This document shows, piece after piece, positions 11,993-42,240 of a DNA stretch of 52,768 nt (its first letter is position 1; every line of letters starts with the position of its first letter). The notes beneath the pieces are model-generated. The model saw nothing but the letters and a program-made list of their open reading frames with translations. It was not told the DNA's origin and made no database searches. The stretch is from contig JAGOOK010000006.1 of the NCBI GenBank assembly GCA_017992555.1, forward strand, positions 1 through 52,768. The letters run 5' to 3'. The stretch comes from Caldisericia bacterium. Its GTDB lineage: Bacteria; Caldisericota; Caldisericia; JAAYUI01. Position numbers and translations under genes: made by a program.

Positions 11993-12013
11993 AAAGTTTC
12001 GCTTCCGATAAAT

Positions 12014-12043: not shown

Positions 12044-12058
12044 ATATGGAGAGAGCGT

Positions 12059-26576: not shown

Positions 26577-26649
26577 GTCGGAATTTGACAACCACACCAC
26601 CTAAGATTACAATTCACTATCGTTGGGAACCCACGGAAGGGAGGGGCAA

Positions 26650-28047
26650 TTGGGAGTGCCACAAACCCTTTCTGAGAAAGCATTTGACTTATGCAAGAAA
26701 CTGCAGTTTGATCTTCCTGCCCATCAAAAAAAATGGATAAGATGTTTTGATGATCCATGGAGCAGGAGGGTCCAGCTTGCGCCACGTTGTCATGGTAAAT
26801 CTACTATATGGACGGTGATATTTTCACAAGCCTTCCTCTTGTTAAATCTTGGGGCGAGAATACTGGTTGTTTCAAAGACCGAGCAGCTTGCATCAAGGCT
26901 TTTGAGGCAGATTGAATCGGCCTGCATCAGGCTCTGGCAGACAGGGTATGCACCAAAACTGTCCAGTGCAACAGCAACCGAAATGAGGCTGGAGGGTTGT
27001 GACTCAAAGGAACCAAATGTTTCCTGTTCGGGCATCCTTGGGTCGCTCACCGGTGGCCACTATGACCTGATCATCTGCGATGACGTGCTTGATGACCGCA
27101 ATACACAGACGCCGCAGGCAAGGGAGGAAGTCGAAGAGTGGTTTCATGGGTCATTGCTCCAGCTTTGTTTGCCAGAGACGAGGCTTCTTGTTGTCGGGAC
27201 AAGAAAGCACCCGGAGGATCTCTATGGCAAATTGGGGAAAAACCCAGCCTGGGAGTTTGTTTCAGAGAAAGCAATCATCAAGTGGCCATCAAATTTCACG
27301 GAAGCGTTGGAAAAGGGGATGCCAATATCCGAATTTTTCAGTTTTGGCGACAAGGGCCAGCTGCTTGGCGTGAAAAAGGAGGGCAAATGGCAAGTGCTAT
27401 GGCCCAAAATGTGGGGAGTAGACAGGCTTCTTCTAGACAGGTTGATGACAGGCCAAGCAATGTTTGACAGGGAAAAGCAGAATGATGTGAGTTTCTATCT
27501 GGGCAGGACTTTCAGGAGGGAATGGCTTGTGTTTTACGACTTGCTCCCCGAAAGGTCATCGTTGTCGGTTTATACGGCCTGCGATCTGGCCATATCCGAG
27601 AGAGAGGGTTCGGACTGGTTTGCGATGGTCACGGTTGGCGTTGATTCTGCTGGCGCCATATATCTTCTCGATTGCATCAGGGGACATTTTGGTTTTTCAA
27701 GACAGGCGGAAGCCGTGAGGGACTCTTGTGAACTCCACAAACCACTTCTTTTAGGAATAGAGGATGTTGCATACCAGAGGGCGCTCATAGAGCACCTTTC
27801 AGGCAATCTGGCAATTCCTGTCAAGTCAATCACCCCGCTTGCGCCAAAGCAGTCGAGGATAAGGGCGCTCCAGCCGCTGTTTGAATCAGGGAAGGTCCGC
27901 GTTGCGCCCTGCCACGAACTTTTTGTCAGGGAGCTGCTGGAGTTTCCGGGAGGAGAGCATGACGACATGATAGATGCTTTTGAAATGGCAGTTTCACTTG
28001 CAAGGCAGGGAACATCGCCGAGGGTCGACATTCTGGAGGTTTTATGA
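26650..28047 (+). CDS. Phage terminase large subunit
   Basis: The packaging motor ATPase and nuclease, about 465 residues from the TTG at 26650, which follows GGGAGGGG at good spacing; GTG at 26656 is an alternative, and a longer frame to 26623 lacks a site. The Walker A is APRCHGKST near residue 43, and the Walker B with its catalytic acid LIICDDVLDD near 141. The RNase-H-like nuclease has its first acid in ACDLAIS near 308, then LGIEDVAYQRAL, and the C-terminal GGEHDDMIDAF near 437. All key residues are present, so it should work. A small terminase is not found upstream. It overlaps the portal gene by 4 bases (ATGA). Confidence 0.95.
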   Translation: MGVPQTLSEKAFDLCKKLQFDLPAHQKKWIRCFDDPWSRRVQLAPRCHGKSTIWTVIFSQAFLLLNLGARILVVSKTEQLASRLLRQIESACIRLWQTGYAPKLSSATATEMRLEGCDSKEPNVSCSGILGSLTGGHYDLIICDDVLDDRNTQTPQAREEVEEWFHGSLLQLCLPETRLLVVGTRKHPEDLYGKLGKNPAWEFVSEKAIIKWPSNFTEALEKGMPISEFFSFGDKGQLLGVKKEGKWQVLWPKMWGVDRLLLDRLMTGQAMFDREKQNDVSFYLGRTFRREWLVFYDLLPERSSLSVYTACDLAISEREGSDWFAMVTVGVDSAGAIYLLDCIRGHFGFSRQAEAVRDSCELHKPLLLGIEDVAYQRALIEHLSGNLAIPVKSITPLAPKQSRIRALQPLFESGKVRVAPCHELFVRELLEFPGGEHDDMIDAFEMAVSLARQGTSPRVDILEVL

Positions 28048-29234
28048 AGCAGGCAAAGCTTGATTTTCTTTCGTGTGAGACAAGACAGGTCACGGAAAAA
28101 CCACTGGGCGCATCCGGGGTAGTGGAACCACCCCCGTACCTGGATTTTGAGAAGCTGCTCGAGCTTTACCAGAGCAATGAGATCTACTACAGGGCAGTGC
28201 AGGTAAAAGCCCAGTTCACAGTTGGACAGGGCTGGAGGCTTGTGGATGAAGGTGGTGGAGAAGACGCCAGAAAGAGGTTGTTCCAGTTTCTTGAGGAGTG
28301 TAATCCGGGCCAGACTTTTGACGAACTGCTGTTCCAGCTGATGGTTGACCTGGAATGCCTTGGGAATGGATACCTTGAGGCCACGAGAGACTCATTCGGA
28401 AAAGTTGGGAGGCTGTACCATGTTTCTGCCAGGAACATAAAACTGCTCAGGGACGGCGGTTTTGTACAAACGATAGGCACCCAGAAGAGGAAATTTGCCA
28501 GCTTTGGCGGCGGTGAGATTTTTGAGGGTGATGCCAGCAATCCGTCTGAGATCGTGCATTTCAGGAAATACAATCCTTCCTCGCAGTTCTATGGCCTTCC
28601 TGATTCGGTAGCCGCGATAGGCTCCACAATGGGCGATATCCTGGCCAGAGACTACAACATCCAGTTCTTTGAGAACAATGCCACACCAAGGTTTTGTCTT
28701 ATTATATCTGGCGGCTCGCTCTCTCCGAAGGACAAGGAGGAGCTCCAGAACTACATGTCAAACCTCAAGGGCAATCCGCACAAGACAATGGTCTTGCAGT
28801 TCCCTCAGGGTGTCACCGGTGAAATAAAGCCGATCCAGACAACACCGCAGGAGGCCTCTTTTGCCGACTACAGGAAGATGAACCGCGACCTGATGGTTGT
28901 TGCCCATGGTGTTCCACCGCACCTGCTTGGCATAATCGAGAGCGGCAATCTTGGCAGTGGCACCGGCCAGTCGCAGCTGCAAAACTTCAAAAATCTTGTC
29001 ATTGCCCCGAGGCAAAGGTTCCTGGAAGAAAGAATCAACAGAACAATCATCAGGGAAGGATTGGGGATTTCTGGGTGGAGGTTCCGCTTCAATGAAATGG
29101 ACGCCGAAGACGAACTTTGCAGGGCGCAGACAGACAAAATACTCATCGATTCAGGGATGATTTCAGCCGATGAAGCCAGGGTCAGGATGGGCCTCCCGGC
29201 CAGGGAGGTTGAAGGGGCCGGCAAAAACCAGTAA
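28044..29234 (+). CDS. Phage portal protein
   Basis: The 396-residue head-tail vertex protein through which DNA enters and leaves. It follows the PBSX/HK97-type portal pattern: an N-terminal segment YQSNEIYYRAVQVKAQFTVGQGW, then VDLECLGNGYLEATRD, FRKYNPSSQFYGLPDSVAA, the stem/wing ARDYNIQFFENNATPRF, and the crown region FADYRKMNRDLMVVAHGVPPHLLGI, followed by LIAPRQ-type helices (LVIAPRQRFLEERIN). Its start overlaps the terminase stop (ATGA), giving translational coupling. It is of normal length for the smaller portal families and appears intact. Confidence 0.94.
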   Translation: MKQAKLDFLSCETRQVTEKPLGASGVVEPPPYLDFEKLLELYQSNEIYYRAVQVKAQFTVGQGWRLVDEGGGEDARKRLFQFLEECNPGQTFDELLFQLMVDLECLGNGYLEATRDSFGKVGRLYHVSARNIKLLRDGGFVQTIGTQKRKFASFGGGEIFEGDASNPSEIVHFRKYNPSSQFYGLPDSVAAIGSTMGDILARDYNIQFFENNATPRFCLIISGGSLSPKDKEELQNYMSNLKGNPHKTMVLQFPQGVTGEIKPIQTTPQEASFADYRKMNRDLMVVAHGVPPHLLGIIESGNLGSGTGQSQLQNFKNLVIAPRQRFLEERINRTIIREGLGISGWRFRFNEMDAEDELCRAQTDKILIDSGMISADEARVRMGLPAREVEGAGKNQ

Positions 29235-29237
29235 TAT

Positions 29238-29528
29238 GTGCTCATGTCACTGAGATTCTCAAAAACTGACAGAAAGCTCTATTTCGACTCAAAGCTGGAT
29301 GCCATCTGGGCAGTGCCGGTGGGTCTCCTGCTTTGTGCCGGGTGGTTTTATGGCCTTGGCTATGTCGTTTCATGGCTCTGGAACATAACCATATACAGGT
29401 TTTTTGTGCCGGCACCACCACTGGATGTCTACACGGCGTGGGGAGCAATGATTGTGGTGTGGCTTATATTCAATGCGCCTTTTGCACCACTCGGACTGGC
29501 CAGGTTCTTCAAAAAGAAGTCAGACTGA
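29238..29528 (+). CDS. Small two-helix membrane protein in particle cluster
   Basis: A product of 94-96 residues, from GTG 29238 or ATG 29244, neither with a clear Shine-Dalgarno site. It has two hydrophobic helices (AIWAVPVGLLLCAGWFYGLG and WGAMIVVWLIFNAPF) and a basic tail RFFKKKSD. Two helices plus a charged C-terminus are compatible with a holin, which the cluster otherwise seems to lack, but its place between portal and protease genes is unusual for one. No family was recognised. A hairpin with a T run follows the gene. Confidence 0.65.
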   Translation: MLMSLRFSKTDRKLYFDSKLDAIWAVPVGLLLCAGWFYGLGYVVSWLWNITIYRFFVPAPPLDVYTAWGAMIVVWLIFNAPFAPLGLARFFKKKSD

Positions 29529-29556
29529 CGCTACTTGGCATAGACAAAAAACACTG

Positions 29557-29582
29557 GGCCCTCTTTTGCTGGAGGGCCTTTT
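29557..29582 (+). terminator. Intra-operon terminator or attenuator
   Basis: GGCCCTC (29557-29563) pairs with GAGGGCC (29572-29578) across an 8-base loop and is followed by TTTTC. It sits between the small membrane protein and the protease gene, inside the particle operon, so partial termination could adjust head-gene expression. Confidence 0.55.
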
Positions 29583-29597
29583 CATTTGGAGGGGACA

Positions 29598-30026
29598 ATG
29601 GCAGGTAAAAGCGGGGATGCTTTGGGGATCGTATGGGGCTGGGCCTCCACAGAAGCACTGGATTCACAGGGGGACATCATAAGCACAGGGGCTGTAAAGG
29701 AGGCCCTTGGCGCCTATTCAAGGTGGAGAAATGTCAGGGAGATGCACGAGCCGAGGGCAGTTGGTGTTGCATCGCATCTCTCGCTCACACCAAAAGGCCT
29801 CCTGGTTGGTGCCGACATCTACGACAAGAAGTGCTGGGACAAGATAAAGAGGGGAATCTACAAGGGGTTTTCTGTTGGGGGTGTGGTCACATCGAAAAGA
29901 CCAAAGAACTTTGAAGGCAAGACTATTGACGTCATCACCGGGATGACAATTGCCGAGATTTCTGTGGTGGATCAGCCGGCAAACCCGGAAGCCGGGTTCA
30001 TTCTTGTTTGCGAAAGAAAGGAGTAA
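29598..30026 (+). CDS. Prohead maturation protease (XkdF/S78-like)
   Basis: The 142-residue serine protease that cleaves scaffold and capsid N-termini during head maturation. The start is the ATG behind GGAGGGG. The sequence WGWASTEALDSQGDIIS is characteristic of the XkdF-like S78 group. The catalytic pair is probably H50 (EMHEPRAVG) and S92 (YKGFSVGG), and IAEISVVDQPANPEAGF is the conserved C-terminal strand. It precedes a small coiled-coil gene and the capsid gene, the standard order. In RcGTA the protease occupies the same position between portal and capsid. Confidence 0.9.
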   Translation: MAGKSGDALGIVWGWASTEALDSQGDIISTGAVKEALGAYSRWRNVREMHEPRAVGVASHLSLTPKGLLVGADIYDKKCWDKIKRGIYKGFSVGGVVTSKRPKNFEGKTIDVITGMTIAEISVVDQPANPEAGFILVCERKE

Positions 30027-30029
30027 GTG

Positions 30030-30305
30030 ATGCTGGGAAGGTTTTTTAAAAAAGGGGAGGAAAAAAAAGACGATTTTGAATGTATGCCGGAGCAGCTTCT
30101 TGAGAGCCTGTCCGCAAGGATAAAGGAGATGGAGGAGCGGATGGATTCGATGTCCGAGGCCTTGTCATCACTCGAGGAGAAATTTGATGACGCCATGCTC
30201 AGGCTTGGGGCAATGGAAAAGGGGCTCCTCAAGACAAAGGCAATTGTGGCCGACGACAAAGCTGAGCCAAAAATGTGGGCGTCCGTTGTGGCGCTCCTTT
30301 CATGA
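30030..30305 (+). CDS. Coiled-coil protein, candidate scaffold
   Basis: A 91-residue charged protein starting with MLGRFFKKGEEKKDD and containing one long predicted coiled coil (LLESLSARIKEMEERMDSMSEALSSLEEKFDDAMLRL region, about residues 25-65). It starts three bases after the protease stop, with AAAGGAG in front (GTG 30027 is an alternative start). Position between protease and capsid and the coiled coil fit a small scaffold protein, although sequence alone cannot prove it. The stop lies 11 bases before the capsid start. Confidence 0.65.
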   Translation: MLGRFFKKGEEKKDDFECMPEQLLESLSARIKEMEERMDSMSEALSSLEEKFDDAMLRLGAMEKGLLKTKAIVADDKAEPKMWASVVALLS

Positions 30306-30316
30306 TGGGAGGAAAC

Positions 30317-31495
30317 ATGATAGGAAATGAAAAACTGCTTTCAAAAGCTGCCATAACTTCAGGGTCTTTTGCCCAGAGGATCGGCCTTGCAACAGAGGAT
30401 GCAAACCGTTTTATTGACTACATTGTTGATGCCTCGTTCCTCAAGAACAACGCAAGGGTCGAGAGGATGAGGGGCAGCACAAAAAAGCTTGTGAGGCTGG
30501 GGATTGGTGAGGAAGTCCTCAGGCCTGGAAACTATGGCTCTTCAGGAGATGGCTTCTCCGATGTCTCAACATCGGCTGTAACGCTCACCTCGAAGGCCAT
30601 GAAAGCCGTTGTGCCGATTGCAGATGATGCACTCATGGACAACATTGAAGGCGAGTCATTTGCCGACCACCTCATGAGGGTAGTGGCAAACCAGATAGGC
30701 AACCAGCTTGAATATGCCTACCTCATGGGGCAAGACACTGGGGCACTTCCAAAAAACCATATCTGGGAGATGGTTGAAGGATGGTACCCGAGGGCAGTTT
30801 CCGAAGGCCATCTCATAGATGCCAAGTCTACTTTTGCTGACAGGGACATCAGCGCGGAAAAACTCTCGAGGACACTGAAAACCCTGTCGAGCAAATACAG
30901 GGGGAAGAGGGAAAACCTCAGGTTTATAATGAGTGATGACCTGTACCAGGACTATGTTGATGCGCTTGGAAGCAGGACGACTCCCCTTGGAGATGACGCA
31001 ATAACCGGAGATTCGCTCATGAGCTTCGGCAAAGTGCCAATCTCGCCATGCGCTCTTGTTCCTACAAATCTTCCGGTGCCTGTTTCTGGTGGAGGAAATA
31101 CCACCATGTCATCGGCCTCTGTTGCTGGAGATACAACAATAGAAGTCACATCCGCAACAAATATCCAGCAGGGCGACACGCTGGCCATTGGCGAAGGGGC
31201 GACCCGCGAAATCAGGAAAGTTGCTTCCATTGTGGCAACCGATGTCACACTGGATAGTGCTCTGGTGTTCCAGCACCAGCTGGGCGAGAAGGTCGTCGAG
31301 TGCACACTGGACGGGACTTTTGTCATGCTTTGCGACACAAGCAATCTCGTACTGGGCATCCAGCAGGACGTGACCATCGAGACAGAGCGCAGGGCAACAG
31401 AGGGTGTTACTTACTTTGTCGTGACGATAAGGTGTGATTGCGCCCTTGAAAATCCTGATGCAGTAGTGGTTTTGAGCAACCTGAAGGTGAAATAG
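30317..31495 (+). CDS. Major capsid protein (HK97-fold) with inserted beta-domain
   Basis: A 392-residue capsid protein. The ATG at 30317 follows GGGAGG; a frame to 30275 overlaps the previous gene and has no site. The HK97-like pattern includes an N-terminal helical region, GNYGSSGDGFSDVST, TSKAMKAVVPIADDALMDN (E-loop/P-domain helix), and RGKRENLRFIMSDDLYQDY followed by TGDSLMSFGKVPISPCALVP. After that a ~70-residue module is inserted (about residues 259-330: AGDTTIEVTSATNI, GDTLAIGEG, ALVFQHQLGEKVVE), then the capsid fold resumes (GTFVMLCDTSNLVLGIQQDV). Related modules are found in the tail-tube and a tail-tip protein. The module probably projects from the capsid surface. Confidence 0.88.
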   Translation: MIGNEKLLSKAAITSGSFAQRIGLATEDANRFIDYIVDASFLKNNARVERMRGSTKKLVRLGIGEEVLRPGNYGSSGDGFSDVSTSAVTLTSKAMKAVVPIADDALMDNIEGESFADHLMRVVANQIGNQLEYAYLMGQDTGALPKNHIWEMVEGWYPRAVSEGHLIDAKSTFADRDISAEKLSRTLKTLSSKYRGKRENLRFIMSDDLYQDYVDALGSRTTPLGDDAITGDSLMSFGKVPISPCALVPTNLPVPVSGGGNTTMSSASVAGDTTIEVTSATNIQQGDTLAIGEGATREIRKVASIVATDVTLDSALVFQHQLGEKVVECTLDGTFVMLCDTSNLVLGIQQDVTIETERRATEGVTYFVVTIRCDCALENPDAVVVLSNLKVK

Positions 31496-31870
31496 ATGTA
31501 CGCTGGCATTCAGGATGTAAGGAAGGCACTCAGGGGAATTGGCGAGGAGGTCATTCCAGACACCTCCGAGAACAGGTTTTCCATCGAGCAGGCAATCTTG
31601 AAGGCCAGCAGGATGGTTGACCTTGTTGTTTCGTGCAACTTCCAGGTGCCGGAACAAGTGCCTCTGCCAATCAGGGAAATAACGGTTGATCTGGCGTGCT
31701 CGTTTTGCCTTGAGTACGTTTTTCAGGAGCAGGGCGATTCATGGTGCCAGCAGGCACAGAACCTTTACAAGAGGTCGCTGGACATGCTCCGTGAAATAAG
31801 GGACGGCAGGGTCTCGGCAGATCTCCTGCCACGGTCCGGCATCCCATCAGGACTCTGGGTGTCTTCGTGA
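31496..31870 (+). CDS. Head-tail connector/adaptor protein
   Basis: A 124-residue helical protein that begins immediately after the capsid stop. The N-terminal YAGIQDVRKALRGIG, the central helix FSIEQAILKASRMVDLVVSC, and IREITVDLACSFCLEYVF with the following LYKRSLDMLREIRDG fit the gp6/DUF1320-type head-completion adaptors that bind the portal. The position directly behind the capsid gene supports this. Its stop overlaps the GTG of a 45-codon ORF. Confidence 0.75.
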   Translation: MYAGIQDVRKALRGIGEEVIPDTSENRFSIEQAILKASRMVDLVVSCNFQVPEQVPLPIREITVDLACSFCLEYVFQEQGDSWCQQAQNLYKRSLDMLREIRDGRVSADLLPRSGIPSGLWVSS

Positions 31871-32004
31871 TCCAGATAAAGCATGATCTGGGAAAAGCGG
31901 TTTTTGCAGACAAGGTCAGTGACATTGCAAAAAACATCAGGAAAAAGCTTGAATCTTTGGCCAGCCACGGGAGTGGCAAAAAGACATCGGGAGGGCGAAA
32001 ATGA
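31867..32004 (+). CDS. 45-aa basic protein, coupled small ORF
   Basis: A short gene between adaptor and tail-terminator candidate. It starts with GTG overlapping the adaptor stop (GTGA) and ends overlapping the next start (ATGA), so it is translationally coupled at both ends. The product is lysine-rich (DIAKNIRKKLESL, then GSGKKTSGGRK). Without it, a 130-base hole would break an otherwise gapless operon. It could be a small neck protein; no family was recognised. Confidence 0.6.
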   Translation: MIQIKHDLGKAVFADKVSDIAKNIRKKLESLASHGSGKKTSGGRK

Positions 32005-32408
32005 CGCCATACAGGGAGGTTCTGTTGCAGGCAAAAGACGCCCTGGAAACAAAATTTCCGGGTGTGGAGATAGTTCTGGGGCCAAGACAGCTGGCAAAAC
32101 AGTTTCCATGCCTTGCCCTGTCGATTGCGCCTTCGGAGGGAAGGGCAACAACAATAGGCGGTGGCAGGGAATCTATCATTGGTCTCACAATCAGTGTGCT
32201 CTCAAGGGACTATCAGGGCAGGGAGCAGGGATACCTTGCGCTTGCAGACATCATATCGAGGATCGAGGAAGAGGCAACCGAGCCGACATTCCTGCCGTCA
32301 TATCTTGTCAGGCACGTCGAAACAAATTTTTCACTGGAGCCATTTTACCATGAAAACCAGTTTGTACTTCAGGGTGCTGTTGGCCTCCAGGTAGAGGTTG
32401 AAAACTAG
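32001..32408 (+). CDS. Tail terminator/neck protein candidate
   Basis: A 135-residue protein whose ATG overlaps the preceding small ORF and follows GGGAGGGC. It starts TPYREVLLQAKDALETKFPGVEIVLGPRQLAKQFPCLALSIAP and contains SIIGLTISVLSRDYQGREQGYLALADII. The alternation of a long helix and beta strands and the place just before the tail-tube gene match tail terminator proteins (lambda gpU-like), which cap the finished tail tube. The assignment rests mainly on gene order and size. Confidence 0.65.
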   Translation: MTPYREVLLQAKDALETKFPGVEIVLGPRQLAKQFPCLALSIAPSEGRATTIGGGRESIIGLTISVLSRDYQGREQGYLALADIISRIEEEATEPTFLPSYLVRHVETNFSLEPFYHENQFVLQGAVGLQVEVEN

Positions 32409-32417
32409 GGAGGAAAA

Positions 32418-33662
32418 ATGCCAAAAGGCGAATCCAGCTATTTCGGTTTTGGGAGGGAGACGCAGTTTGCAGAGCCTGTGGCACCGGACAATTTCTGGAA
32501 GGTGTTATCCTGCAATGTCAGCTGGGGCAGGGACATGTCAAAAAGGTTCCTGATAGGCAACTCGGCCCAGCAATCGGAGATGGTCCAGAAGGGCTGGACA
32601 CAAAAAGGAGATATAACGCTTGATGCAAATCCTGTTGCCACTGGCCAAATATTGTATTGGCTCTTTGGCCAGGACAGCGTGGCGGCTGTGCCGGAGGCAA
32701 AATCTGGAGGGGCATCAACAACGCTGTCCTCACAGTCACCGGCTGGCGCCACAACGATAGAGGTGGCTTCGGCAGACAGCCTGGCAGTAAACGACTGGGT
32801 GGCCATCGGCACCGGTCAGGTTTGCGAGTTCGCGAAAATTGTCTCTATAAACGGAACAATACTTGGCATCGAGGCAAAAGGGACTTCTGGCGGGCTGGTT
32901 TTTGCCCATGATCTCGGGTCGACGACCGTGGAGAACGTTCCGGATATTGCCTACAAACACACTTTCAGCCAGTCAGGGACGGTGCCCAGCCAGACATGGG
33001 AGCTTGATCTTGGTGCCCCCGACGGGCACTCTGCCGCCAGGTTCTCCGGTATGATGACAGAAAGTTGCTCAATCTCGATGCTGCCTGCAGAACCAGTCTC
33101 TATTTCTGCCTCATTTGTTGGCTCAAAGATGTCTGCCCACAACACGAGGGCGACACCGGTTTATCAGGAATACGAGTCCTTCAAGCCTGCCGGCTCATCA
33201 ATCACGATTGAGGGAACACCCAAAACGTCTCTGGTCAAAAGCCTGAAACTCTCAGTTTCAAACGGACTGGAGGCATCAGAGCGGACGCTTTCCAGTGGTG
33301 CATTTATCTCAAAGGGCAGTGCAGGGACAATATCGGCAGAGCTTGATGCCGAGGCTCTCTTTGAGGACGATGCTGAACTGCAGAGGTTTCTGGGCGGAGA
33401 CGGGGCAGACTACGCGGCAAAGAATGAGACAAAACCTTTTGCCTGTGTGGTTGAGATGCAGGGTTCGCTGATTGGCCCATCATCTGCAATTCCAGGCTCG
33501 CTCAAGGTAACATTGCTAAAGTGCTACATGACCGCGTGCTCCGTGCCGGTCCAGGTCGGCAGAAAAACGGCCCAGAGCTGGAAGGCCAGCGCGACATTCA
33601 GCCAGAGCGATGGTTTTGCCGTAAAAGCAGAGCTTGTTTGTGGAAAGTACAGCTTCCTGTGA
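32418..33662 (+). CDS. Major tail tube protein with inserted beta-domain
   Basis: A 414-residue tail-tube protein. The N-terminus SSYFGFGRETQFAEPVAPDNF and the later GSSITIEGTPKTSLVKSLKLSVSNGLE and LFEDDAELQRFLGG are characteristic of long-tailed phage tube proteins of the class with N-terminal GxGxE. A module at about residues 97-174 (AGATTIEVASADSL, WVAIGTG, LVFAHDLGSTTVE) resembles the one in the capsid protein. Start ATG behind GGGAGG. Its stop overlaps the GTG of the G chaperone gene. The presence of a tube gene and absence of a sheath gene indicate a non-contractile tail. Confidence 0.85.
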   Translation: MPKGESSYFGFGRETQFAEPVAPDNFWKVLSCNVSWGRDMSKRFLIGNSAQQSEMVQKGWTQKGDITLDANPVATGQILYWLFGQDSVAAVPEAKSGGASTTLSSQSPAGATTIEVASADSLAVNDWVAIGTGQVCEFAKIVSINGTILGIEAKGTSGGLVFAHDLGSTTVENVPDIAYKHTFSQSGTVPSQTWELDLGAPDGHSAARFSGMMTESCSISMLPAEPVSISASFVGSKMSAHNTRATPVYQEYESFKPAGSSITIEGTPKTSLVKSLKLSVSNGLEASERTLSSGAFISKGSAGTISAELDAEALFEDDAELQRFLGGDGADYAAKNETKPFACVVEMQGSLIGPSSAIPGSLKVTLLKCYMTACSVPVQVGRKTAQSWKASATFSQSDGFAVKAELVCGKYSFL

Positions 33663-33985
33663 GCTACCTCAGGGAAGAGTCGTTTGGCTTTGCCAATTTT
33701 GATGCAAGGGCAGGAAAGGATGACAGGGCCAAGATCCATGGAGTCTCAGTCGGTGAATTCTTGGAGGTCCAGAGATTGCTTGCCGCGACCGAAGGAAGCA
33801 GGTCAGAAAATGTTTTCAGGGCAAACCTCAAGCTCGTTGCCTTTTCGTGCCATGAACTGCAAATAGATGGCAGGACATTGAAGCCAACCGAGGACGATAT
33901 AGAGGCACTTGATGCACTCTATTATCAGGTCTTGCTTTCAAGGGTGCTGTCTTTCCACGATTTTTCGGAGCAGGCAAAAAACTGA
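33659..33985 (+). CDS. Tail assembly chaperone G
   Basis: A 108-residue protein that starts with GTG overlapping the tube-protein stop (GTGA). It begins SYLREESFGFANFDARAGKDDR, and the C-terminal half is helical (EDDIEALDALYYQVLLSRVLSF). In siphophages the gene between tail tube and tape measure encodes the G chaperone, which coats the tape measure during tail assembly. Its last codons, GCA-AAA-AAC-TGA, contain a perfect -1 slippery heptamer, and a second frame continues for 83 codons. This reproduces the lambda G/GT arrangement. Confidence 0.82.
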   Translation: MSYLREESFGFANFDARAGKDDRAKIHGVSVGEFLEVQRLLAATEGSRSENVFRANLKLVAFSCHELQIDGRTLKPTEDDIEALDALYYQVLLSRVLSFHDFSEQAKN

Positions 33986-34025
33986 CCGAGGAGGCGCTCT
34001 TTGGGATTGATACCGGGGTGCCTCC
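33976..34025 (+). promoter_or_regulatory. Programmed -1 ribosomal frameshift site (G to GT)
   Basis: The slippery heptamer A-AAA-AAC (33976-33982) sits in frame directly before the G stop codon TGA. A Shine-Dalgarno-like CGGAG lies 5 bases upstream (33966-33970). Seven bases after the heptamer a stem GGAGGC (33990-33995) can pair with GCCTCC (34020-34025). These are the three elements of bacterial and phage -1 frameshift signals, placed exactly where tailed phages use them. Confidence 0.78.
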
Positions 34026-34233
34026 CTATATAGGACAAGTTTTGCCTGTCTTGTCGAAAACGCTTGGGCTTGGCTTGTGGCCATCATCCGGGGGGATGCT
34101 TGAGCAGGACTGGATTTTTGTGGAGCTGGCCTGCCTGGTTGGGGAAACCAGGAACAAGAAAGCCAGGCTTTCTGAAAGAAGCACCAGATTGGAACAGGAG
34201 CAAGGGGGGACATGCAGGAAAAGGCAACCATAA
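33982..34233 (+). CDS. T domain of GT tail assembly chaperone (by -1 frameshift)
   Basis: A frame open from 33911 to 34233 with no convincing start of its own; the first in-frame GTG (34018) has no ribosome binding site. Slipping at 33976-33982 would join 83 residues (LTEEALFGIDTGVPPYIG onward) to the 108-residue G protein, giving a GT fusion of 191 residues. The T part runs 22 bases into the tape-measure gene. In lambda the T domain recruits the tail-tube protein to the tape-measure/chaperone complex, and the same role is inferred here. Confidence 0.75.
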   Translation: MTEEALFGIDTGVPPYIGQVLPVLSKTLGLGLWPSSGGMLEQDWIFVELACLVGETRNKKARLSERSTRLEQEQGGTCRKRQP

Positions 34234-36491
34234 CAATTGAGGCAAAAGACCTCGCAACCAGCGAGATCGAAAAGGCAAAAAAATCCCTGGACCTGCTTGC
34301 CTCTTCGGCCGAGGAGGCAAGCGAAAAGGCCCGGGAGGCTCAAAAGGTCTGGGAGGAAGCAGGGGAATCACTGGACAAGCTTTCCGAGACATTCGGGGGG
34401 CTTGATGAAAACCTGAAAAGGCAGGGCGACAGGCTCCTTGGGACAGCTCAGGAGATCGGGTCAAATTTTGGAAGAAACCTTTGCAATTCTGTGGCCCTGT
34501 CCACTTCGCCCATTCCGGCAATGATGGCAGGGCTTGGGGCAAACTCTGCAAAGATGTTTGCGCAGGGGCTCCTTTCCGGGCTCTCCGAGGTCGAGAGCGC
34601 CGCAAGCTCCATAGCTTCGGTAATCTCCGATTTTCTCGAACTGCATTCCCCCGCCAGGCTTGGGCCGCTTTCAAAAGAGGACCCGACCAACTGGACAAAG
34701 CGCCTTGCAAAGATGCTGGAACAGGGCCTTTTGAGCGGTGAAGACTTCCTTCGCGGGTCATCAGAGAGGGTGGCCCAGGCGCTTTTTGACGGGTTTTCTT
34801 CCCTCCCTTCAAGGCTTGCCGGCATTGCAGAAGGGATCACCAGCTCATTTTCCGTCCTGAGATCTGCGCCGCAGGGCGAAAAATTTGGCGGTCTCTTTAC
34901 AGATGGACTGAACACATCCATCGATGATATTAAAGAAAACCTTTCCAGGGCGGCGTCATCATACAGAAATGCCAGCGAATTTGATGCCATGTTCTCGGTG
35001 CTGACAACGTCTCTGGGTGGAGGAGGCAAGCAGGGTGCTTTCCCTGCATGGGCGACTAAATACCTTTCAAGATCGGGGCAGGTCACCGATGCAGAGATTT
35101 CCGAGCTGGATTCAAAATGGCGCGATTACGGCTGGTTTGGTGAGGGAACAGCCCTTCCCGAAACAAGGGAAGAATGGGAGAAGGCAAGGCAAAAAGAGGG
35201 CCTTCAAGGACCTCCGCTTGATCCATTTGGCGCTGGTGAGCTTGGGGCAAAAAACATGCTTGACTGGCTCTGGGAGGGCAAAAGTGGCCAAAGAAACTGG
35301 GACCTTTCGCTTAAAAAGCCGTGGTTTGCGATGCTCAACTACATCAAGTATCTGTCAGGCTTCAAGAAGAGCGATTCATACCAAGTTCCTGATGACCTGA
35401 AGGATACCGGGTTTGGCAAACTGCTCGAAGGTTCTTCTGCCGATGTTTCCGGCCTTCCATCAAACATAGTTGGCAATGATCTTTTCAAGGCCCTGGCGCC
35501 AAAGATGACGCTTGCTGATCTGGAGAAGCTTTACTGGGGTTCACCAATCGGATTGGGGCTGACGCAGGGTCCAGTGGGGCAGGCAGACAAGCTACTTCCA
35601 ATAAGGGAATTTCTTGCAAAATACAATGGAAAAATCAACAATTCGGCGCTAGACAGGGCCCAAAAGGAGCTTGGGATAGGGTTTGACTACAACCTTGGTT
35701 TTTTGAAGGAGATCCTGTTTGACCAGAATGGCTCGCCAAACACCACTATTGACCCTGTCTCCGAAGGGTCATCGAGATTGAAATCTGCCTATGAGATAGG
35801 CCAGAGGCTGTATGGCATGCTCTCCAATGCCGAAGGAACAAGCGCATGGCAGTATGATGTTTCTGGGAAGAACGCCTATTTGAAAGAACTGTTTGATTCA
35901 CTTGGCATAAAAAAAGATGGAAAAACCTGGTCACAGATGGCACCAAGGGAGGGCGAAGGACTCTGGGGTGGGGCCAATCTTGAGCAGGTGAATCTTGTCA
36001 ATTCCCTTGTCAGTTCAGGGTCATCATTCGAGGATGCCGTTTCAGAGGCCGCAAACGAACTGTTCAGGCAGGCTGTGTCGGCCAGGCAGGAGGAGCTGGG
36101 CAAGGGCAAGGCCAATCCTGCGCTTTATGGCGGATGGGCAGGCACTGACTACTGGAAACTGGTTGATCCGGCATGGATTGCGACCCATGGCTCCGAGGCT
36201 TCGACCCTGACAACAAAATACCTTGACGATGTCGTATTGTCAAAGCTCTTTTACCAGACGGGAAACATCGACCTGACAAGTACCTTGGGCGAGGGAAAAC
36301 CATGGCAACCAGACAGTGGCTACGGGGTGGGCATGCAAACTGGCGCCGGGAAGATTGAAATCAACCAGACATTCAATCTCGATCTCGGTGGCTACGAAGG
36401 AGACATATCCTCGCTTGCCAGGGAGATTGCCCAGCAAACGGTCATTGAAGCCCAGAAAGCCCTTCTGGAGCTCGTGAATTTCAGGGGGTAG
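34212..36491 (+). CDS. Tail tape measure protein
   Basis: The longest gene of the cluster, 759 residues, directly behind the G/GT genes. Start ATG with GGGGG upstream. It opens with a coiled coil (SEIEKAKKSLDLLASSAEEASEKAREAQ) and contains the motif HSPARLGPLS near residue 147 that occurs in many tape measures. It ends with NQTFNLDLGGYEGDISSLAREIAQQTVIEAQKAL, also typical. At about 0.15 nm per residue it would specify a tail of roughly 110 nm (inference). The middle part is not strongly helical and has no recognisable lytic domain. Confidence 0.85.
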   Translation: MQEKATITIEAKDLATSEIEKAKKSLDLLASSAEEASEKAREAQKVWEEAGESLDKLSETFGGLDENLKRQGDRLLGTAQEIGSNFGRNLCNSVALSTSPIPAMMAGLGANSAKMFAQGLLSGLSEVESAASSIASVISDFLELHSPARLGPLSKEDPTNWTKRLAKMLEQGLLSGEDFLRGSSERVAQALFDGFSSLPSRLAGIAEGITSSFSVLRSAPQGEKFGGLFTDGLNTSIDDIKENLSRAASSYRNASEFDAMFSVLTTSLGGGGKQGAFPAWATKYLSRSGQVTDAEISELDSKWRDYGWFGEGTALPETREEWEKARQKEGLQGPPLDPFGAGELGAKNMLDWLWEGKSGQRNWDLSLKKPWFAMLNYIKYLSGFKKSDSYQVPDDLKDTGFGKLLEGSSADVSGLPSNIVGNDLFKALAPKMTLADLEKLYWGSPIGLGLTQGPVGQADKLLPIREFLAKYNGKINNSALDRAQKELGIGFDYNLGFLKEILFDQNGSPNTTIDPVSEGSSRLKSAYEIGQRLYGMLSNAEGTSAWQYDVSGKNAYLKELFDSLGIKKDGKTWSQMAPREGEGLWGGANLEQVNLVNSLVSSGSSFEDAVSEAANELFRQAVSARQEELGKGKANPALYGGWAGTDYWKLVDPAWIATHGSEASTLTTKYLDDVVLSKLFYQTGNIDLTSTLGEGKPWQPDSGYGVGMQTGAGKIEINQTFNLDLGGYEGDISSLAREIAQQTVIEAQKALLELVNFRG

Positions 36492-36494
36492 ACG

Positions 36495-38162
36495 ATGTTC
36501 TGCGGCATATCAAGGGTTGAAACGGGCAATCAGGACATAACAGACCTTGTTGCCTCGATAAAAATAACCGAGGCTTATGGCGAACCGTCGTCCTGCACGA
36601 TCGAGACTGTTCTGCTTCGGACGGATCAGGTCCCACAATATCAGCCTTTTTGCCAGATAGGTGTTTTTGGTGAGAGCGGAGAGGTGGTTTTTGGCGGGAG
36701 GTGCGACGGGGTGCCCAAAAAAGAGGAAACACCTCTTGGCACAAGGCTGGTTTTTGAGGCAAGGGACTGGTCTGCCGAGTGCAAACATCGGATGGTCAAC
36801 GAGCACTATATGGAGTGGATGGCATCTGACATCTACAAGTCTCTTGTGGCCAAATATCTTCCCGGACATACGACTGATCTGGTCAGGGACTGTGATGACA
36901 CTGTTTCGGTGAAGTTCAATGGACAGAGTGTTGAGCAGTGCTTCAAAACACTCTGCGATTTTACGGGATGGGTGTTTCGCGTTTCACCGCAGAAAATCCA
37001 CTATTTTGGCCCAGCATTTCTGGAGCACCTCCAGGTCACGATAAGAGATCCGCACTGCGACATGTCAAAAGGGCAGACAACGCCTTTCGAGCCTGATTAT
37101 TCCACGCTTGCAAACAGGGTTTGGGTTGAGGGTGGGGAAGGCGATGCGGAGAATTTTACAAAGCAGTATATTCTTTCCTCCGAGTTGCCAGACACGCCTG
37201 ACCCGAACATCTGCACGCTTTATCCATTTGCTTTTCCGATATGGTACAAGTGCTCCAGCCTTTCAGTCTATGCAGTGTTTGATTCTGGCGACGGTTTGCT
37301 TGAGAAAGGCAGCCTTGTCCTGCTTGATTGCGACACGGACGGTCTTTCTGTGAAGAATTCTGTTGTAAAGACCAACGAGCCGCTGGACACAAAGCCAGCC
37401 CTGTCGTCCCTCATTTTGCATGATGAGGCTGACACAAACCTTCCTGGGACATTCTCCTCGGACCACAAGATTACAGTCAGTTTCGATGCCCTGTATTGTC
37501 CAGATGCGACAGCAGGGGCCCAGGGTGGATGGGTATATCTGAGCAGGAGCGTCAAGGAGGCCAAGGGCCTCCTCGGCTTCATGGTCAAATACAGAAGAAA
37601 GCTCAAAATAAGCTATGTTTCCGAAGCAGACGAGGAGTCGGTTGGAAAGTATGGCGTCCAGATAGACCTGCCAAAGGTCACCAAGCCTGCAATAAAAGAC
37701 TGGGCGATACTTTACAAATATGCCGACTACCTTCTTTCATCCCACAAAGACCCGCCAAGGAAGGGCAAGGCCACCGTGTACCGGTACAAGGGCGGGCAAA
37801 TGGTCTATCCGGTGCCTATAAGAGCAGGTGTTGTTGCCGATTTTGAGTTTGATAGGTTTGGGGTATGTGAAGGAGCCAGGATTTCAAGGGTCACACACGA
37901 AATCACGCCAATGCAATGGAGGATGGTTTGCGAGTCCAGCCTCGACCCCAATCTCTACGCCAGCCTGCTTGCCGATGTCATCAAGAGGCTTGCCCAGCTT
38001 GAGCAGGAGGCGTCTGAAGGAGACATCATCAATGCGGCATCGGGGCTTTCTTCCGGGGCTGGGGTGATGGATTTTGCGCCGTCAATAAAGAGTTTTCTGC
38101 CCAAAAACGACTATGGCTTTGGTGAGTCGCTTTTTGGGGCGTGCGAATGGGAGGGACAATGA
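36495..38162 (+). CDS. Tail hub / tip protein
   Basis: A 555-residue protein right after the tape measure, start ATG behind AGGGGGT. It begins FCGISRVETGNQDITDLVASIKI. The segments GEPSSCTIET, FGESGEVVFGGRCDGVPKK and LVFEARDWSAECKHRMVNE resemble the gp27/phage-late-control-D type hub domains that close the tail tube, and CFKTLCDFTGWVFRVSPQKIHYFG fits the second hub barrel. Many cysteines are present. It overlaps the next gene by 4 bases (ATGA). The hub assignment rests on gene order and these general similarities. Confidence 0.72.
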   Translation: MFCGISRVETGNQDITDLVASIKITEAYGEPSSCTIETVLLRTDQVPQYQPFCQIGVFGESGEVVFGGRCDGVPKKEETPLGTRLVFEARDWSAECKHRMVNEHYMEWMASDIYKSLVAKYLPGHTTDLVRDCDDTVSVKFNGQSVEQCFKTLCDFTGWVFRVSPQKIHYFGPAFLEHLQVTIRDPHCDMSKGQTTPFEPDYSTLANRVWVEGGEGDAENFTKQYILSSELPDTPDPNICTLYPFAFPIWYKCSSLSVYAVFDSGDGLLEKGSLVLLDCDTDGLSVKNSVVKTNEPLDTKPALSSLILHDEADTNLPGTFSSDHKITVSFDALYCPDATAGAQGGWVYLSRSVKEAKGLLGFMVKYRRKLKISYVSEADEESVGKYGVQIDLPKVTKPAIKDWAILYKYADYLLSSHKDPPRKGKATVYRYKGGQMVYPVPIRAGVVADFEFDRFGVCEGARISRVTHEITPMQWRMVCESSLDPNLYASLLADVIKRLAQLEQEASEGDIINAASGLSSGAGVMDFAPSIKSFLPKNDYGFGESLFGACEWEGQ

Positions 38163-38650
38163 GAGAATGGCTGGAAAACATCAGGCAGGCCATTGGAGAG
38201 GTCTCCGGCGAGGCAGGCGCATATTTTGCGCTGAAGGGGAGGCTCCACGGAAGAGTGACAATTGGCGATCAGACAAGGGAAAATACTGTAACAGATGCCG
38301 GAATAAGGGCCATCGCGAGGGCACTTTGCTCTCCAGTCAGGCAATCGGGCAGGACGCTCTCACCGGTTTTCAGGATCGAGTGGTTTGCGGCATCCACCTC
38401 TGCAACACCGCCAACACCAAAAGACACAACGCTTGGCGGGAGCGTTTCATTGAGGAGCGTGGAGCAGGTGGACGCATTGGGAAAGAAACTTGTGGTGACC
38501 AACTTTATTGGCCAGCCGGAGTTCAATTTCACATGGCGCAAGGCCGGGCTGCTCCTTACTGATAGCACAGTGTTTGCGCTTTGCGGTGTTTATGAGCCAA
38601 AGACCGACCAGGTGAGCAAAACCGTTGTCTGGGAAATAGAGTTTTCATGA
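38159..38650 (+). CDS. Tail-tip/fibre-associated protein
   Basis: A 163-residue protein whose ATG overlaps the hub stop and follows GGGAGGG. It has a short N-terminal helix, then RENTVTDAGIRAIARALCSP, a stretch with PPTPKDTTLGGSVSLRS and VTNFIGQPEFNFTWRKAGLLL. This order (T-x-AG..IA, P..DT.LG, then ..AGL) is shared by many small phage tail-tip and fibre N-terminal proteins that attach receptor-binding parts. The function is inferred from that pattern and location. Confidence 0.6.
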   Translation: MREWLENIRQAIGEVSGEAGAYFALKGRLHGRVTIGDQTRENTVTDAGIRAIARALCSPVRQSGRTLSPVFRIEWFAASTSATPPTPKDTTLGGSVSLRSVEQVDALGKKLVVTNFIGQPEFNFTWRKAGLLLTDSTVFALCGVYEPKTDQVSKTVVWEIEFS

Positions 38651-38660
38651 GGGAGGGAAA

Positions 38661-39944
38661 ATGTTGCCTTCAAGACCAAAGATACAGCCGGTAAAGGGTG
38701 GAGCAAACAGGGACCCGGTGAGTGCAGGGTGGGGGAATGGCATTTTATCGGAACTCCACCTGCCGCAGGAGAGGGTCTATTTTGATTACCAGGAGGTTGG
38801 ACCCATTGAGGTGGATGGCAGAAAAGTGACTTTTGAGAGCGTTTTTGCAAAATCATATTCCGATTTTGGCCCAAACTCCTTTCATGCATCGGGGTCGGTT
38901 ATGGAACAGGGGCAGGCCTCGGAATTGCTCCTCTCGTGTGACTCCTTCTACTCCTACCTGGTAAACGAAGAGCAGCTCTCGACTGAGGACTGGACGACCC
39001 TCAAGTCGGTGCATGGTGACTGGCTCCGGGAGCCTGTGACTGTTGTGACAGTCAATGGCACCATCATCGGTGAAGCAGAGTATTCGATTGATTATGGCAA
39101 TGGCACCATTGTTTTTCCGCAAAAGATCAGGGGGAATGCACATCTGGTTTCACAGGCGCAGGCCGGCGCAATATCAATTGTTGTCGATGATGTGGTTGGG
39201 TTTTCTCCTGGAGACATGGCTGTTATTAGAGGTGAGACGACCTCACAGGATGAAGTGGTCATTGTCCAGTCTGTTATTTTGCCGAACACGATAACACTTT
39301 CCGGGGCACTGTCGTTTTCTCATGCCACAGGCAAACAGATTGAGGAAATGGCGCCGGTTGTTAGGGCGACATACCGCTACATCGAGCAGCACCTCTCGCT
39401 GTATGAGTTCAATCCTCCAAACCCGGCAGGGCCGCAGGCCATGATGCCTGCAATGTCTCATGAATTCTGCGAAACAGGCGACACCGGTCTTGGAATCCTG
39501 CGTCTCAAGAACCCGATCTTTGACTCCTGGACCGGAAGCATGCCGGACGGATGGGCAACTGGTGGCCTCGGTGCCTTGCAGACAGCGAAGGGCCAGGGGA
39601 TTCTGGGTGATTTTTCCCTGAGATTGACAGCGACCCCAAACACTGGTTGGAGCTATTGCCACCAGACACATCCAGGCACGCATTCCGGAAACATCACATT
39701 TTCTTGCTGGGTGCGCACCGACCAGACGGCAAAGATAGAAATAGTGCTATCTGGAGCACCAGCAGTTTCAACATGCCTTGACTGCAGGGCAGGGCAGGTT
39801 GCTGAGACATTCAAAGACAAATGGGTCAGGCTCTCGGTTTCCGTCCAGGGGCAGGGCCCCTTTGAAGTCAGGCTGTATGCCCAGTTGTCAGAGAATGATG
39901 GTGGAACGGCGAGCTTCGATGGTTGTTGCCTGCTTGTCAAATAG
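38661..39944 (+). CDS. Tail fibre-like protein with shared module and lectin-like C-terminus
   Basis: A 427-residue protein, start ATG behind GGGAGGG. Residues about 158-230 (AGAISIVVDDVVGF, GDMAVIRG, ALSFSHATGKQI) are a third, more divergent copy of the beta-module found in the capsid and tube proteins. The C-terminal ~145 residues (NPIFDSWTGSMPDGWAT, then SLRLTATPN, TFSCWVRTD, WVRLSVSVQ and GTASFDGCCLL) look like a CBM4/9-type carbohydrate-binding jelly roll. The protein therefore probably binds cell-surface glycans at the tail tip. Several paired cysteines are in the jelly roll. Confidence 0.72.
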   Translation: MLPSRPKIQPVKGGANRDPVSAGWGNGILSELHLPQERVYFDYQEVGPIEVDGRKVTFESVFAKSYSDFGPNSFHASGSVMEQGQASELLLSCDSFYSYLVNEEQLSTEDWTTLKSVHGDWLREPVTVVTVNGTIIGEAEYSIDYGNGTIVFPQKIRGNAHLVSQAQAGAISIVVDDVVGFSPGDMAVIRGETTSQDEVVIVQSVILPNTITLSGALSFSHATGKQIEEMAPVVRATYRYIEQHLSLYEFNPPNPAGPQAMMPAMSHEFCETGDTGLGILRLKNPIFDSWTGSMPDGWATGGLGALQTAKGQGILGDFSLRLTATPNTGWSYCHQTHPGTHSGNITFSCWVRTDQTAKIEIVLSGAPAVSTCLDCRAGQVAETFKDKWVRLSVSVQGQGPFEVRLYAQLSENDGGTASFDGCCLLVK

Positions 39945-39953
39945 GGAGGGAAA

Positions 39954-40034
39954 ATGAACCTGCTTTATGTCACAGTATTCCTGTCAGCCATTTTCTGCCT
40001 GTCAGGGATTTTCATCATGCCAGGGGGCGTCTGA
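39954..40034 (+). CDS. 26-aa single-helix membrane microprotein
   Basis: The ATG at 39954 follows an excellent Shine-Dalgarno GGGAGGG. The frame encodes 26 residues, almost all of it one hydrophobic helix (NLLYVTVFLSAIFCLSGIF), and ends in TGATG, overlapping the next start by one base. The strong site and the coupling argue that it is translated. It could be a lysis-related or membrane-docking peptide; no homolog was recognised. Confidence 0.55.
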   Translation: MNLLYVTVFLSAIFCLSGIFIMPGGV

Positions 40035-40759
40035 TGGCACTGCCGCCTGCTATATGCCAGATAATTTCCGAGGCGCAGAGATTGTACAATAATGCCTTTT
40101 CCCAGATGGACGAGACGGATGATGACAGCCTTGCCCTCGACCTCGAAAAGAAGTTTGACGATTTTGCGCTCTCGCTTGACGCGCTCCTTGTCGACCTCTC
40201 CCAGACACTTCAGGCTACATCAAGAGAAATAAGCGATCTGGTGAACCCGAACCAGTTGCCGATGTACCTGCACCTTGATGCGCACATTCCGGCAAGATCG
40301 GCTGGCTATCCGGAGCAGGCGTTGCCTGATTCTGGCCCCATTGCCAGTTTCTACAAGGGAAAGGGCAAAATACACTGCCTGGGGCTTGCAGGGTCGTATG
40401 TCCCTCAGTCAGTGAAACTCATTATAAGACAGTACGATGAGGAGATGAACCAGACGAGAGAAAAAACCATCTGTCAGGTGCCGGTTTGCCACAATGGCTC
40501 GCCACCGCCTGCATCCTTGCATGTTATTCCTTCGCCATTCTGGGCCTCATATTGCTGGATGAACACCCCGGAATTCCCGCACATGGTCTCGCACGCCTCG
40601 TGCGCACTGCCATATTTTGAACTGTTTGGCTACGCCAGCCCGACCACATACACTCATTTTCTGGTCGAGGCAACACCGGCAAACGTCTTCTGGTCGGCAG
40701 GGATCGCATTCGAGTCCCAGTACCAGCACGACAGCGTATACTTTGGGGAGGGCCTGTGA
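40034..40759 (+). CDS. Particle protein of unknown function
   Basis: A 241-residue protein starting at an ATG that overlaps the stop of the 26-aa ORF. The first ~80 residues are helical and acidic (LYNNAFSQMDETDDDSLALDLEKKFDDFAL), and the remainder is beta-rich with several Cys, Trp and Tyr (PSPFWASYCWMNTPEFPHMVSHASCALPYFELFG). No family was recognised. It overlaps the next gene by 4 bases (GTGA), placing it firmly in the tail-tip/lysis end of the operon; a structural or adhesion role is likely but unproven. Confidence 0.6.
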   Translation: MALPPAICQIISEAQRLYNNAFSQMDETDDDSLALDLEKKFDDFALSLDALLVDLSQTLQATSREISDLVNPNQLPMYLHLDAHIPARSAGYPEQALPDSGPIASFYKGKGKIHCLGLAGSYVPQSVKLIIRQYDEEMNQTREKTICQVPVCHNGSPPPASLHVIPSPFWASYCWMNTPEFPHMVSHASCALPYFELFGYASPTTYTHFLVEATPANVFWSAGIAFESQYQHDSVYFGEGL

Positions 40760-41466
40760 GGGGATACGAAATAGTGGCATGGGCGCAGTGCAGAAGGGCA
40801 AATGGTGCCATCAGCAACCTGGTTGGCTACACAAAAGATAAGGTTGGTGAAACACTCCTCGAAGCCGGCGCAAAGGCAGTCTTGTGGTCATACAGCCTGA
40901 AGGAGCTTTTTGGTTCTGCAAAATCTGACATCACTTCGTCGATGCTGCTGCTCTCGGGCTCTGGCGACCAGAACGGCGAATACATACCACTGCCAAACCT
41001 TGAGGGCTACCTCACCCAGAGCATGCAGTGGCAAAAAATTATCACGCTGACAGGTTTTGCAAATGTCTATGGCATCAGCATCTCGGCGGCACCTGACTGG
41101 ATCATTCCGCCGTCTCAGCCATATTCTAGCGAGGTTCTGCAAGGATCGGTGGCGATTCTCACGGCAACCCAAAACCCTGGCACCGGGCTTGTGAACCTGA
41201 CAGACATCAAAAAACCGAGGTTTGATTTTCCAAAAGTTGTCAGCCAGGGCTGGAGCGACAAGCCGGTCCCGCCGATGGCGGTGCCCTGGGACATCAACCC
41301 GGACACGTATTGCACGCCACCCCAGCTTGAGGCCGCAAACTACAACATCAACATCCCGATAGCCAAGCACAGGGTACCCTCCTCAGGGCTGGCAGTCTGG
41401 GCGTACTGGGCAACAGCATCCAATCCAAGGCTGAGGGTGACGCTGGTGACAGCGCCGGAGAGGTGA
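40756..41466 (+). CDS. Particle protein of unknown function
   Basis: A 236-residue protein with a GTG start overlapping the previous stop (GTGA), behind GGGGAGGG. It begins RGYEIVAWAQCRRANGAI and is rich in Pro, Trp and Tyr in its second half (GWSDKPVPPMAVPWDINPDTYCTPPQL). No transmembrane helix or known catalytic motif was seen. It is translationally coupled to the lysin gene (GTGA), so it is probably needed together with it, for example as a tail-tip component. Confidence 0.6.
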   Translation: MRGYEIVAWAQCRRANGAISNLVGYTKDKVGETLLEAGAKAVLWSYSLKELFGSAKSDITSSMLLLSGSGDQNGEYIPLPNLEGYLTQSMQWQKIITLTGFANVYGISISAAPDWIIPPSQPYSSEVLQGSVAILTATQNPGTGLVNLTDIKKPRFDFPKVVSQGWSDKPVPPMAVPWDINPDTYCTPPQLEAANYNINIPIAKHRVPSSGLAVWAYWATASNPRLRVTLVTAPER

Positions 41467-42107
41467 GAGCAGTGGAATACATCCTTGATGACCCGAAATA
41501 TCTTGTGCTCCACCATTTTGTAAATGGAAAAATTGGTGCGACAAAAGAAAAGGCCCTTGTTGTGGCAACAAAAAAGCTTAATCCCAGGGAGTACCATTAT
41601 GTGGTTTACTCTGACGGCTCGTGGGAGGGCTGGCAAAAGGAGGGGCTGGTTGCGGCGCACTGCGGTGCCGACAATCAGTCCCAGAGCAGGTGCGGGGCAC
41701 ACAATTTCAATTCGATCGGTGTCTGCTGCATGGGCAATTTTGAAAAAGGCCCGATGGAAGAAAAACAGCTCTCAGGCCTCCTTGCCCTTGTCAGGGATAT
41801 TGTCACACGGCATGGCATTGTACCAGAGAACATTTTGCCGCACAGCGCGATTGCACCAACGGCTTGTCCGGGAAAATATTTCCCACTTTTGGAGGCAAGA
41901 CAGGCGGCGGACGTTCCGCTTGTGAGGGTGGCGATAAACTCTGACCAGGCGCTTGTCATGGGCAGGCCGGACAAAATGCCGTTGAAGCTGGTGCTGGACA
42001 GGGGGCATGCAGTTGCCCCCCTGCGCTGGCTTTGCGAGGCGCTTGGATTCAGGATTGTTTTTCTAAGGGATGGCGGGGTTGTGGAGGTGAGGAAGAAGTT
42101 TTCGTAG
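41463..42107 (+). CDS. N-acetylmuramoyl-L-alanine amidase (lysin) with stalk domain
   Basis: The lysin of the cluster, 214 residues with a GTG start overlapping the previous gene. The N-terminal ~150 residues are an amidase_2 domain. Zinc ligands are H17 (or H18) in LVLHHF, H127 in LPHSAIAP and C135 in TACPG, almost the spacing of T7 lysozyme (H17, H122, C130). The lysine of T7 near the last cysteine is a threonine here. The C-terminal ~60 residues (MPLKLVLDRGHAVAPLRWLCEALGFRIVF) are one copper-amine-oxidase-like stalk domain, the same module found in large host surface proteins, so it may direct the enzyme to the host wall. There is no signal peptide, so a holin or other exit is needed. Confidence 0.88.
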   Translation: MRAVEYILDDPKYLVLHHFVNGKIGATKEKALVVATKKLNPREYHYVVYSDGSWEGWQKEGLVAAHCGADNQSQSRCGAHNFNSIGVCCMGNFEKGPMEEKQLSGLLALVRDIVTRHGIVPENILPHSAIAPTACPGKYFPLLEARQAADVPLVRVAINSDQALVMGRPDKMPLKLVLDRGHAVAPLRWLCEALGFRIVFLRDGGVVEVRKKFS

Positions 42108-42134
42108 GTTCTGAGCTGTAATTTCAGTGATCAG

Positions 42135-42173
42135 CTGGCCTGGGTATCTTAGAGACACCCAGGCCAGTTTTTT
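42135..42173 (+). terminator. Rho-independent terminator of particle operon
   Basis: CTGGCCTGGGT (42135-42145) and ACCCAGGCCAG (42157-42167) form an 11-bp perfect stem followed by six T residues (42168-42173). It lies 28 bases after the lysin stop and closes the cluster. Confidence 0.93.
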
Positions 42174-42184
42174 GTTTCTACCGT

Positions 42185-42213
42185 TTGACAAAACATGTTG
42201 ATTTGGATATCAA
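42185..42213 (+). promoter_or_regulatory. Promoter of OLD-family gene
   Basis: A perfect TTGACA (42185-42190), 17 bases, then TATCAA (42208-42213), 27 bases before the ATG at 42241, with GGGGGT as Shine-Dalgarno. It is independent of the particle operon, whose terminator ends 12 bases upstream. Confidence 0.7.
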
Positions 42214-42240
42214 TTTTATAAAGCCTTTGTTGGGGGTAAT

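Follow-up and report, generated by a model that had tools for sequence, protein, structure and literature searches.

The head-tail gene cluster of a Caldisericia bacterium contains a small gene, G, and a second reading frame, T, that very probably encode a tail assembly chaperone of the G/GT type, predicted to be made through programmed -1 frameshifting. This reading, developed from a window of 52,768 nucleotides (the whole stretch of DNA analysed), follows from four elements taken together: a slippery heptamer, entry into T at that heptamer only, selection on the two frames, and the predicted fold of the G product. The frameshift signal is conserved and real, and it is of an ordinary, textbook kind that is already known. 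The features of the locus are collected in Table 1.

Table 1. Position of the putative G/GT locus and its surroundings in the window.
Feature	Position	Strand	Remarks
Whole head-tail cluster, ~15.5 kb, GTA-like	26623..42107	+	One-directional
Major tail tube protein gene (Phage_tube_2)	32418..33662	+	Pfam PF18906, E 3.6e-11
Gene G, predicted tail assembly chaperone, zero-frame product 108 aa	33659..33985	+	GTG start; fold matches; PHROG 344
SD-like CGGAG, 5 nt before heptamer, role doubtful	33966..33970	+	Anti-SD pairing
Slippery heptamer A AAA AAC	33976..33982	+	Same place in 6 copies, 3 lineages
T frame (-1), predicted C-terminal domain of GT	33982..34233	+	Homologous in 6/6 copies
Zero-frame stop of G, TGA (TAA in L017)	33983..33985	+	
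Downstream hairpin, 11 bp and weak inner 2-bp helix	33990..34025	+	Arms 33990-34000 with 34015-34025
Tape-measure protein gene, 759 aa	34212..36491	+	Pfam TMP_3 weak (E 0.0019); several PHROG tape-measure matches

The genes are arranged in the order tube-G-T-tape measure, with the small G directly between the major tail protein and tape-measure genes. The GTG codon of G at 33659 overlaps the stop of the tail tube gene, and translational coupling of the two is likely. G ends in GCA AAA AAC TGA with the heptamer in register and the stop immediately after it, as the sequence-only reading had recognized. That reading had also described a second frame, open for 83 codons and overlapping the tape-measure gene, and this is borne out: T is open from 33982 to 34230, closes with TAA at 34231-34233 and shares 22 bases with the tape-measure ORF, which begins with ATG at 34212. 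Among the genes of the window, A AAA AAC occurs 11 times in 15,854 in-frame positions, and of the 11 only that of G is found at a gene end next to the stop.

The locus is known in six copies: that of the window, those of three congeneric species (L014, L015 and L016), one in a species from a different genus (L017) and one on a contig from IMG/VR (L027); the four from one genus are nearly identical at the junction. In all six, representing three lineages, A AAA AAC makes up the last two codons of G, the stop comes directly next (TAA in L017, TGA in the others) and T is homologous. Across genera, G is ~39% and T ~34% identical, and a conservation check set in advance found the heptamer kept together with the T frame in every relative, including the other genus at 39% G identity. 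The probability that the conserved Ala/Glu-Lys-Asn end is spelled xxA AAA AAC by chance is ~0.10, 0.19 and 0.18 under the codon usage of the respective lineages, or ~0.003 jointly if lineages are treated as independent and shared ancestry is ignored. In the tail region examined of a Zipacnadia relative (L018, portal 38-40%), no G/T pair was found, nor was a matching slippery site at a gene end, except for GGGGGGC far from the tail genes. No homologues of G were found among 50,697 phage records, and a scan of viral contigs with the tube protein recovered only L027. Among phage records, HHTV-1 alone has a tube protein resembling that of the cluster (29% over part of the protein), and its gene layout before the tape measure differs. 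L027 carries, at 1-15740, a third diverged copy of the cluster that extends from the terminase to the gene preceding the position of the amidase.

Folding reveals a hairpin with three G-U pairs (-22.1 kcal/mol) that starts 7 nt 3' of the heptamer and is likely to be the frameshift stimulator. A GC-rich stem had been proposed at precisely this distance, but with 6 bp; it comprises 11 bp, the six pairs being its Watson-Crick core. The equivalent hairpin has 11 bp and a 5-nt spacer in L017, and 13 bp with one bulge and a 3-nt spacer in L027. A stem is found 3-7 nt after the heptamer in 6/6 copies, in each case stronger than expected from null sequences in which synonymous codons were sampled from the lineage's own genes, with the window's pool used for the congeners (p 0.002-0.017). 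The conservation of the stem in homologs, put forward as a check, is thus seen in all lineages with a shift in the position of the 3' arm: L017 and L027 have the same 5' arm and a 3' arm right after a 4-base loop, and the congeners have the 3' arm further downstream. The persistence of a stem despite the moved arm suggests that selection acts to keep it. Measured against plain dinucleotide shuffles, the signal is strong in L017 (z -5.1) and weaker for the congeners (z -1.5 to -2.3). An Rfam search of the junction element gave no match. A longer fold, in which the slippery region pairs with TTTTGCCT further downstream, was noted by eye in 4/4 congeneric copies, is absent from L017 and was not used. 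A Shine-Dalgarno-like CGGAG was said to lie 5 bases upstream of the heptamer; it does, but a stimulatory role was rejected as unsupported, its pairing with the anti-SD (-5.8 kcal/mol) being indistinguishable from the background of random cluster positions (median -4.8). The value at the L027 site is -4.5, and the host anti-SD CCTCC was detected in 3/5 genomes of the family.

That slippage takes place, and that it is the ribosome rather than RNA polymerase that slips, is what we infer from these signals. Frameshifting between G and T is a widely conserved trait of long-tailed phages, and in E. coli A_AAA_AAC is much less slippery than A_AAA_AAG (PMC5009743). Slippage of RNA polymerase on the run of A residues could also fuse G to T, as insertion of one extra A would give the junction KKL in place of KNL; slippage of two tRNAs in tandem would yield KNL, and slippage of a single tRNA would likewise yield KKL. 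The run has 6 A in the genus of the window and 7 A in L017 and L027, and transcriptional slippage serves some bacterial genes, e.g. dnaX of Thermus (PMC5009743). We nevertheless consider this improbable; the run is short and never exceeds 7 A in any lineage, and what has been kept is the C of A AAA AAC, the register with the stop and the hairpin 3-7 nt downstream, all of which fit ribosomal slippage.

The beginning of T bears on how the frame is entered. T has 83 or 67 codons depending on the copy, and 21 residues are invariant across the six, including the motif LGxWPxSGG..QD. Homology starts with the first T codon (LxEExLxG), immediately after the heptamer. In the -1 frame, L017 has a TGA directly before the heptamer, and L027 has a stop one codon further upstream (TAA CGA AAA AAA CTG). 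Taken together, the upstream stops and the homology from codon 1 imply that T can be entered only at the heptamer. It has to be considered that T is a separate protein, made from an internal start or by reinitiation after the G stop, since codon 13 of T is GTG in the genus of the window and TTG in L017. However, L027 has no start codon at this position or anywhere before codon 29, which excludes independent initiation of the conserved N-terminal part in that copy; moreover, the conserved L1, E3, E4, L6 and G8 precede codon 13, and the homology begins exactly at the heptamer. We regard a separate T protein as highly improbable. The claim that T is without a start of its own consequently holds for the conserved first 12 codons and fails beyond them, as ATG, GTG or TTG codons are present in the frame from codon 13 onwards.

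The frames proposed for G and GT are also those under selection. Among four congeners, the T region read in the -1 frame gives a dN/dS of 0.30, compared with 0.98 for the zero frame and 1.75 for the +1 frame; the value for G is 0.04-0.09 (four congeners). It is hardly credible that the split reflects a sequencing or assembly error in the A run, with G and T in truth one ORF, or a decaying gene with a dead T: errors are common in homopolymer runs and every sequence used is metagenomic, but the same architecture recurs in diverged sequence in an IMG/VR contig and in five metagenome-assembled genomes that stem from several projects, a co-conservation that in the main refutes this reading, and both G and T are under purifying selection. 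As a separate observation, synonymous divergence is lower in T (33982-34211) than in any other cluster gene compared, and T holds the four lowest of 582 comparison windows, with pS of 0.05-0.07 against a mean of 0.29 (four congeners). This may reflect RNA-level constraint or recent gene conversion.

For the product of G, structure prediction gives the fold of the tail assembly chaperones HK97 gp13 and YqbN. An AlphaFold2 model based on the six sequences has a pLDDT of 88, and Foldseek against the PDB ranked the HK97 tail assembly chaperone (2OB9) first (E 0.022, probability 1.00). VIA-align gave Z 8.9 for YqbN (3KLU) and Z 7.6 for HK97 gp13 (2OB9), both at 3.3 A over 88 residues; Z values near 8 are inconclusive by themselves, and the position of the gene agrees with the assignment. 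Next came 5IR0, a protein of unknown function from a PICI-like element, with Z 5.9, and the rest scored at most 2.7. Four of the six G homologues match PHROG 344 ("tail assembly chaperone") weakly (best E 0.017). T had no match among PHROGs and its sequence matches no known family; its structure model is poor (pLDDT 64).

In the mechanism that we propose, the cluster would yield a siphovirus-like particle and its tail assembly chaperone would be made in two forms. The majority of ribosomes would terminate at the TGA at 33983 to produce G, and a minority would slip by -1 on the heptamer, aided by the hairpin, to produce GT of 191 aa. The roles of the two parts are modelled on phage lambda, in which the tape measure is bound by both gpG and gpGT, the tail-shaft subunit is bound by T and the ratio of the two forms is ~30:1 (PMC5009743). 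By analogy, the tape-measure protein would be coated by the G part, present in both forms, and tail-tube subunits would be recruited to it by the T part, which only the rare GT carries; both forms would depart before completion of the tail.

The cluster encodes a large terminase, portal, S78-type protease, HK97-type capsid protein and Mu Gp36-like protein. After these come the tail tube, G, T, the tape measure, additional tail genes and an amidase. As no match to a sheath gene turned up in the cluster, its product is likely a siphovirus-like tail, judged from gene content. The capsid protein (30293-31495), the tail tube protein and a further tail protein (38661-39944) apparently have an inserted domain of ~75 residues in common (44% identity between capsid and tube). 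The amidase (Amidase_2, 41463-42107) has a C-terminal tail that, judged by eye, is similar to the copper-amine-oxidase-like domain found in host surface proteins; Pfam matched the amidase only. Directly after the cluster, at 42241-44091, is an OLD-like AAA/TOPRIM gene of low GC (33%), possibly a defence gene, which is identical in genome G002 and 47% identical in G003, with no match in the stretch examined of G001.

In 5/5 host-family species with a sequenced genome, the cluster occupies one and the same chromosomal site, and its three upstream neighbours are shared by both genera. It has no integrase or replication genes next to it; tyrosine-recombinase matches map to other contigs, with none detected in genome G004. 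A search of 54 genomes of the phylum did not find the capsid protein in the remaining 49. Synonymous divergence of the cluster resembles that of the flanking genes, most cluster genes have dN/dS of ~0.05-0.1 against congeners, indicative of purifying selection, and the identity between genera of portal (61%) and capsid (71%) is comparable to that of MAT (76%) and MiaA (58%). Synteny across two genera fits mostly vertical co-diversification, but within the genus of the window the splits of the element disagree with those of its flanks. The flanks and the terminase mostly group the window with G001, and most genes from the portal on group it with G002 (28044-44091), the part at 40756-44091 being nearly identical to G002. 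These conflicting groupings indicate that the element has recombined within the genus, which would count against strict co-divergence with the host.

In these features the cluster resembles a gene transfer agent (GTA), as the features of such elements are listed in PMC9662315. We see an evenly balanced case for the more specific view that it is a GTA or other domesticated phage particle of one Caldisericia family, independent of the three classified GTA groups, with a chaperone frameshift that selection has maintained from a time before the split of the two host genera. A literature search found no report of a gene transfer agent for this phylum; one thermozyme review naming both terms was left aside. 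The GTA-like setting is of more interest than the frameshift itself. The frameshift is nevertheless valuable as a test of function, because a dead prophage would lose the heptamer, the hairpin and the second frame across two genera. Upkeep of the signal suggests continued use of the particle by the bacteria. Purifying selection, seen in most genes of the cluster, speaks for use of their products; the particle itself may be functional. Together, the conserved frameshift, fixed position and purifying selection suggest that an uncultured bacterial lineage maintains a tailed particle.

The G/GT tail assembly chaperone of phage lambda was reportedly treated by Levin in 1993 and by Xu, Hendrix and Duda in 2004, 2013 and 2014, and a review covers it (PMC5009743). 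The locus described here resembles it in having a short G between tail tube and tape measure, a -1 shift near the 3' end of G and a T extension that adjoins the tape-measure gene. The lambda heptamer is G GGA AAG, whereas that of the present locus is A AAA AAC, with the stop directly after it and a strong hairpin after the site, and T has no sequence similarity to known T. The initial suggestion that lambda G/GT is reproduced is thus upheld for the programmed -1 join of G and T and for the predicted chaperone fold, and has to be amended for the heptamer and the strong, dnaX-type stem; by the same analogy, we infer that G and T have the roles of their lambda counterparts. HK97 gp13 (2OB9) and Bacillus subtilis YqbN (3KLU) are alike in predicted G fold at 8-11% sequence identity. 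The g-t site of Haloarcula californiae virus HCTV-2, whose host is archaeal, has the same heptamer, A_AAA_AAC (PMC5009743). In E. coli dnaX, an A-rich slippery site is likewise followed by an 11-bp stem-loop (PMC5009743), and the strong stem downstream of our heptamer would be a stimulator of the dnaX type; dnaX differs in being another gene, with the heptamer A AAA AAG and a proven SD stimulator. In contrast to RcGTA, BaGTA and BhGTA, the cluster, a candidate GTA, is marked by within-genus recombination rather than strict co-divergence. With these GTAs (PMC9662315) it shares head-tail genes whose chromosomal site is fixed throughout a host family, the absence of integrase and replication genes next to the cluster, and purifying selection.
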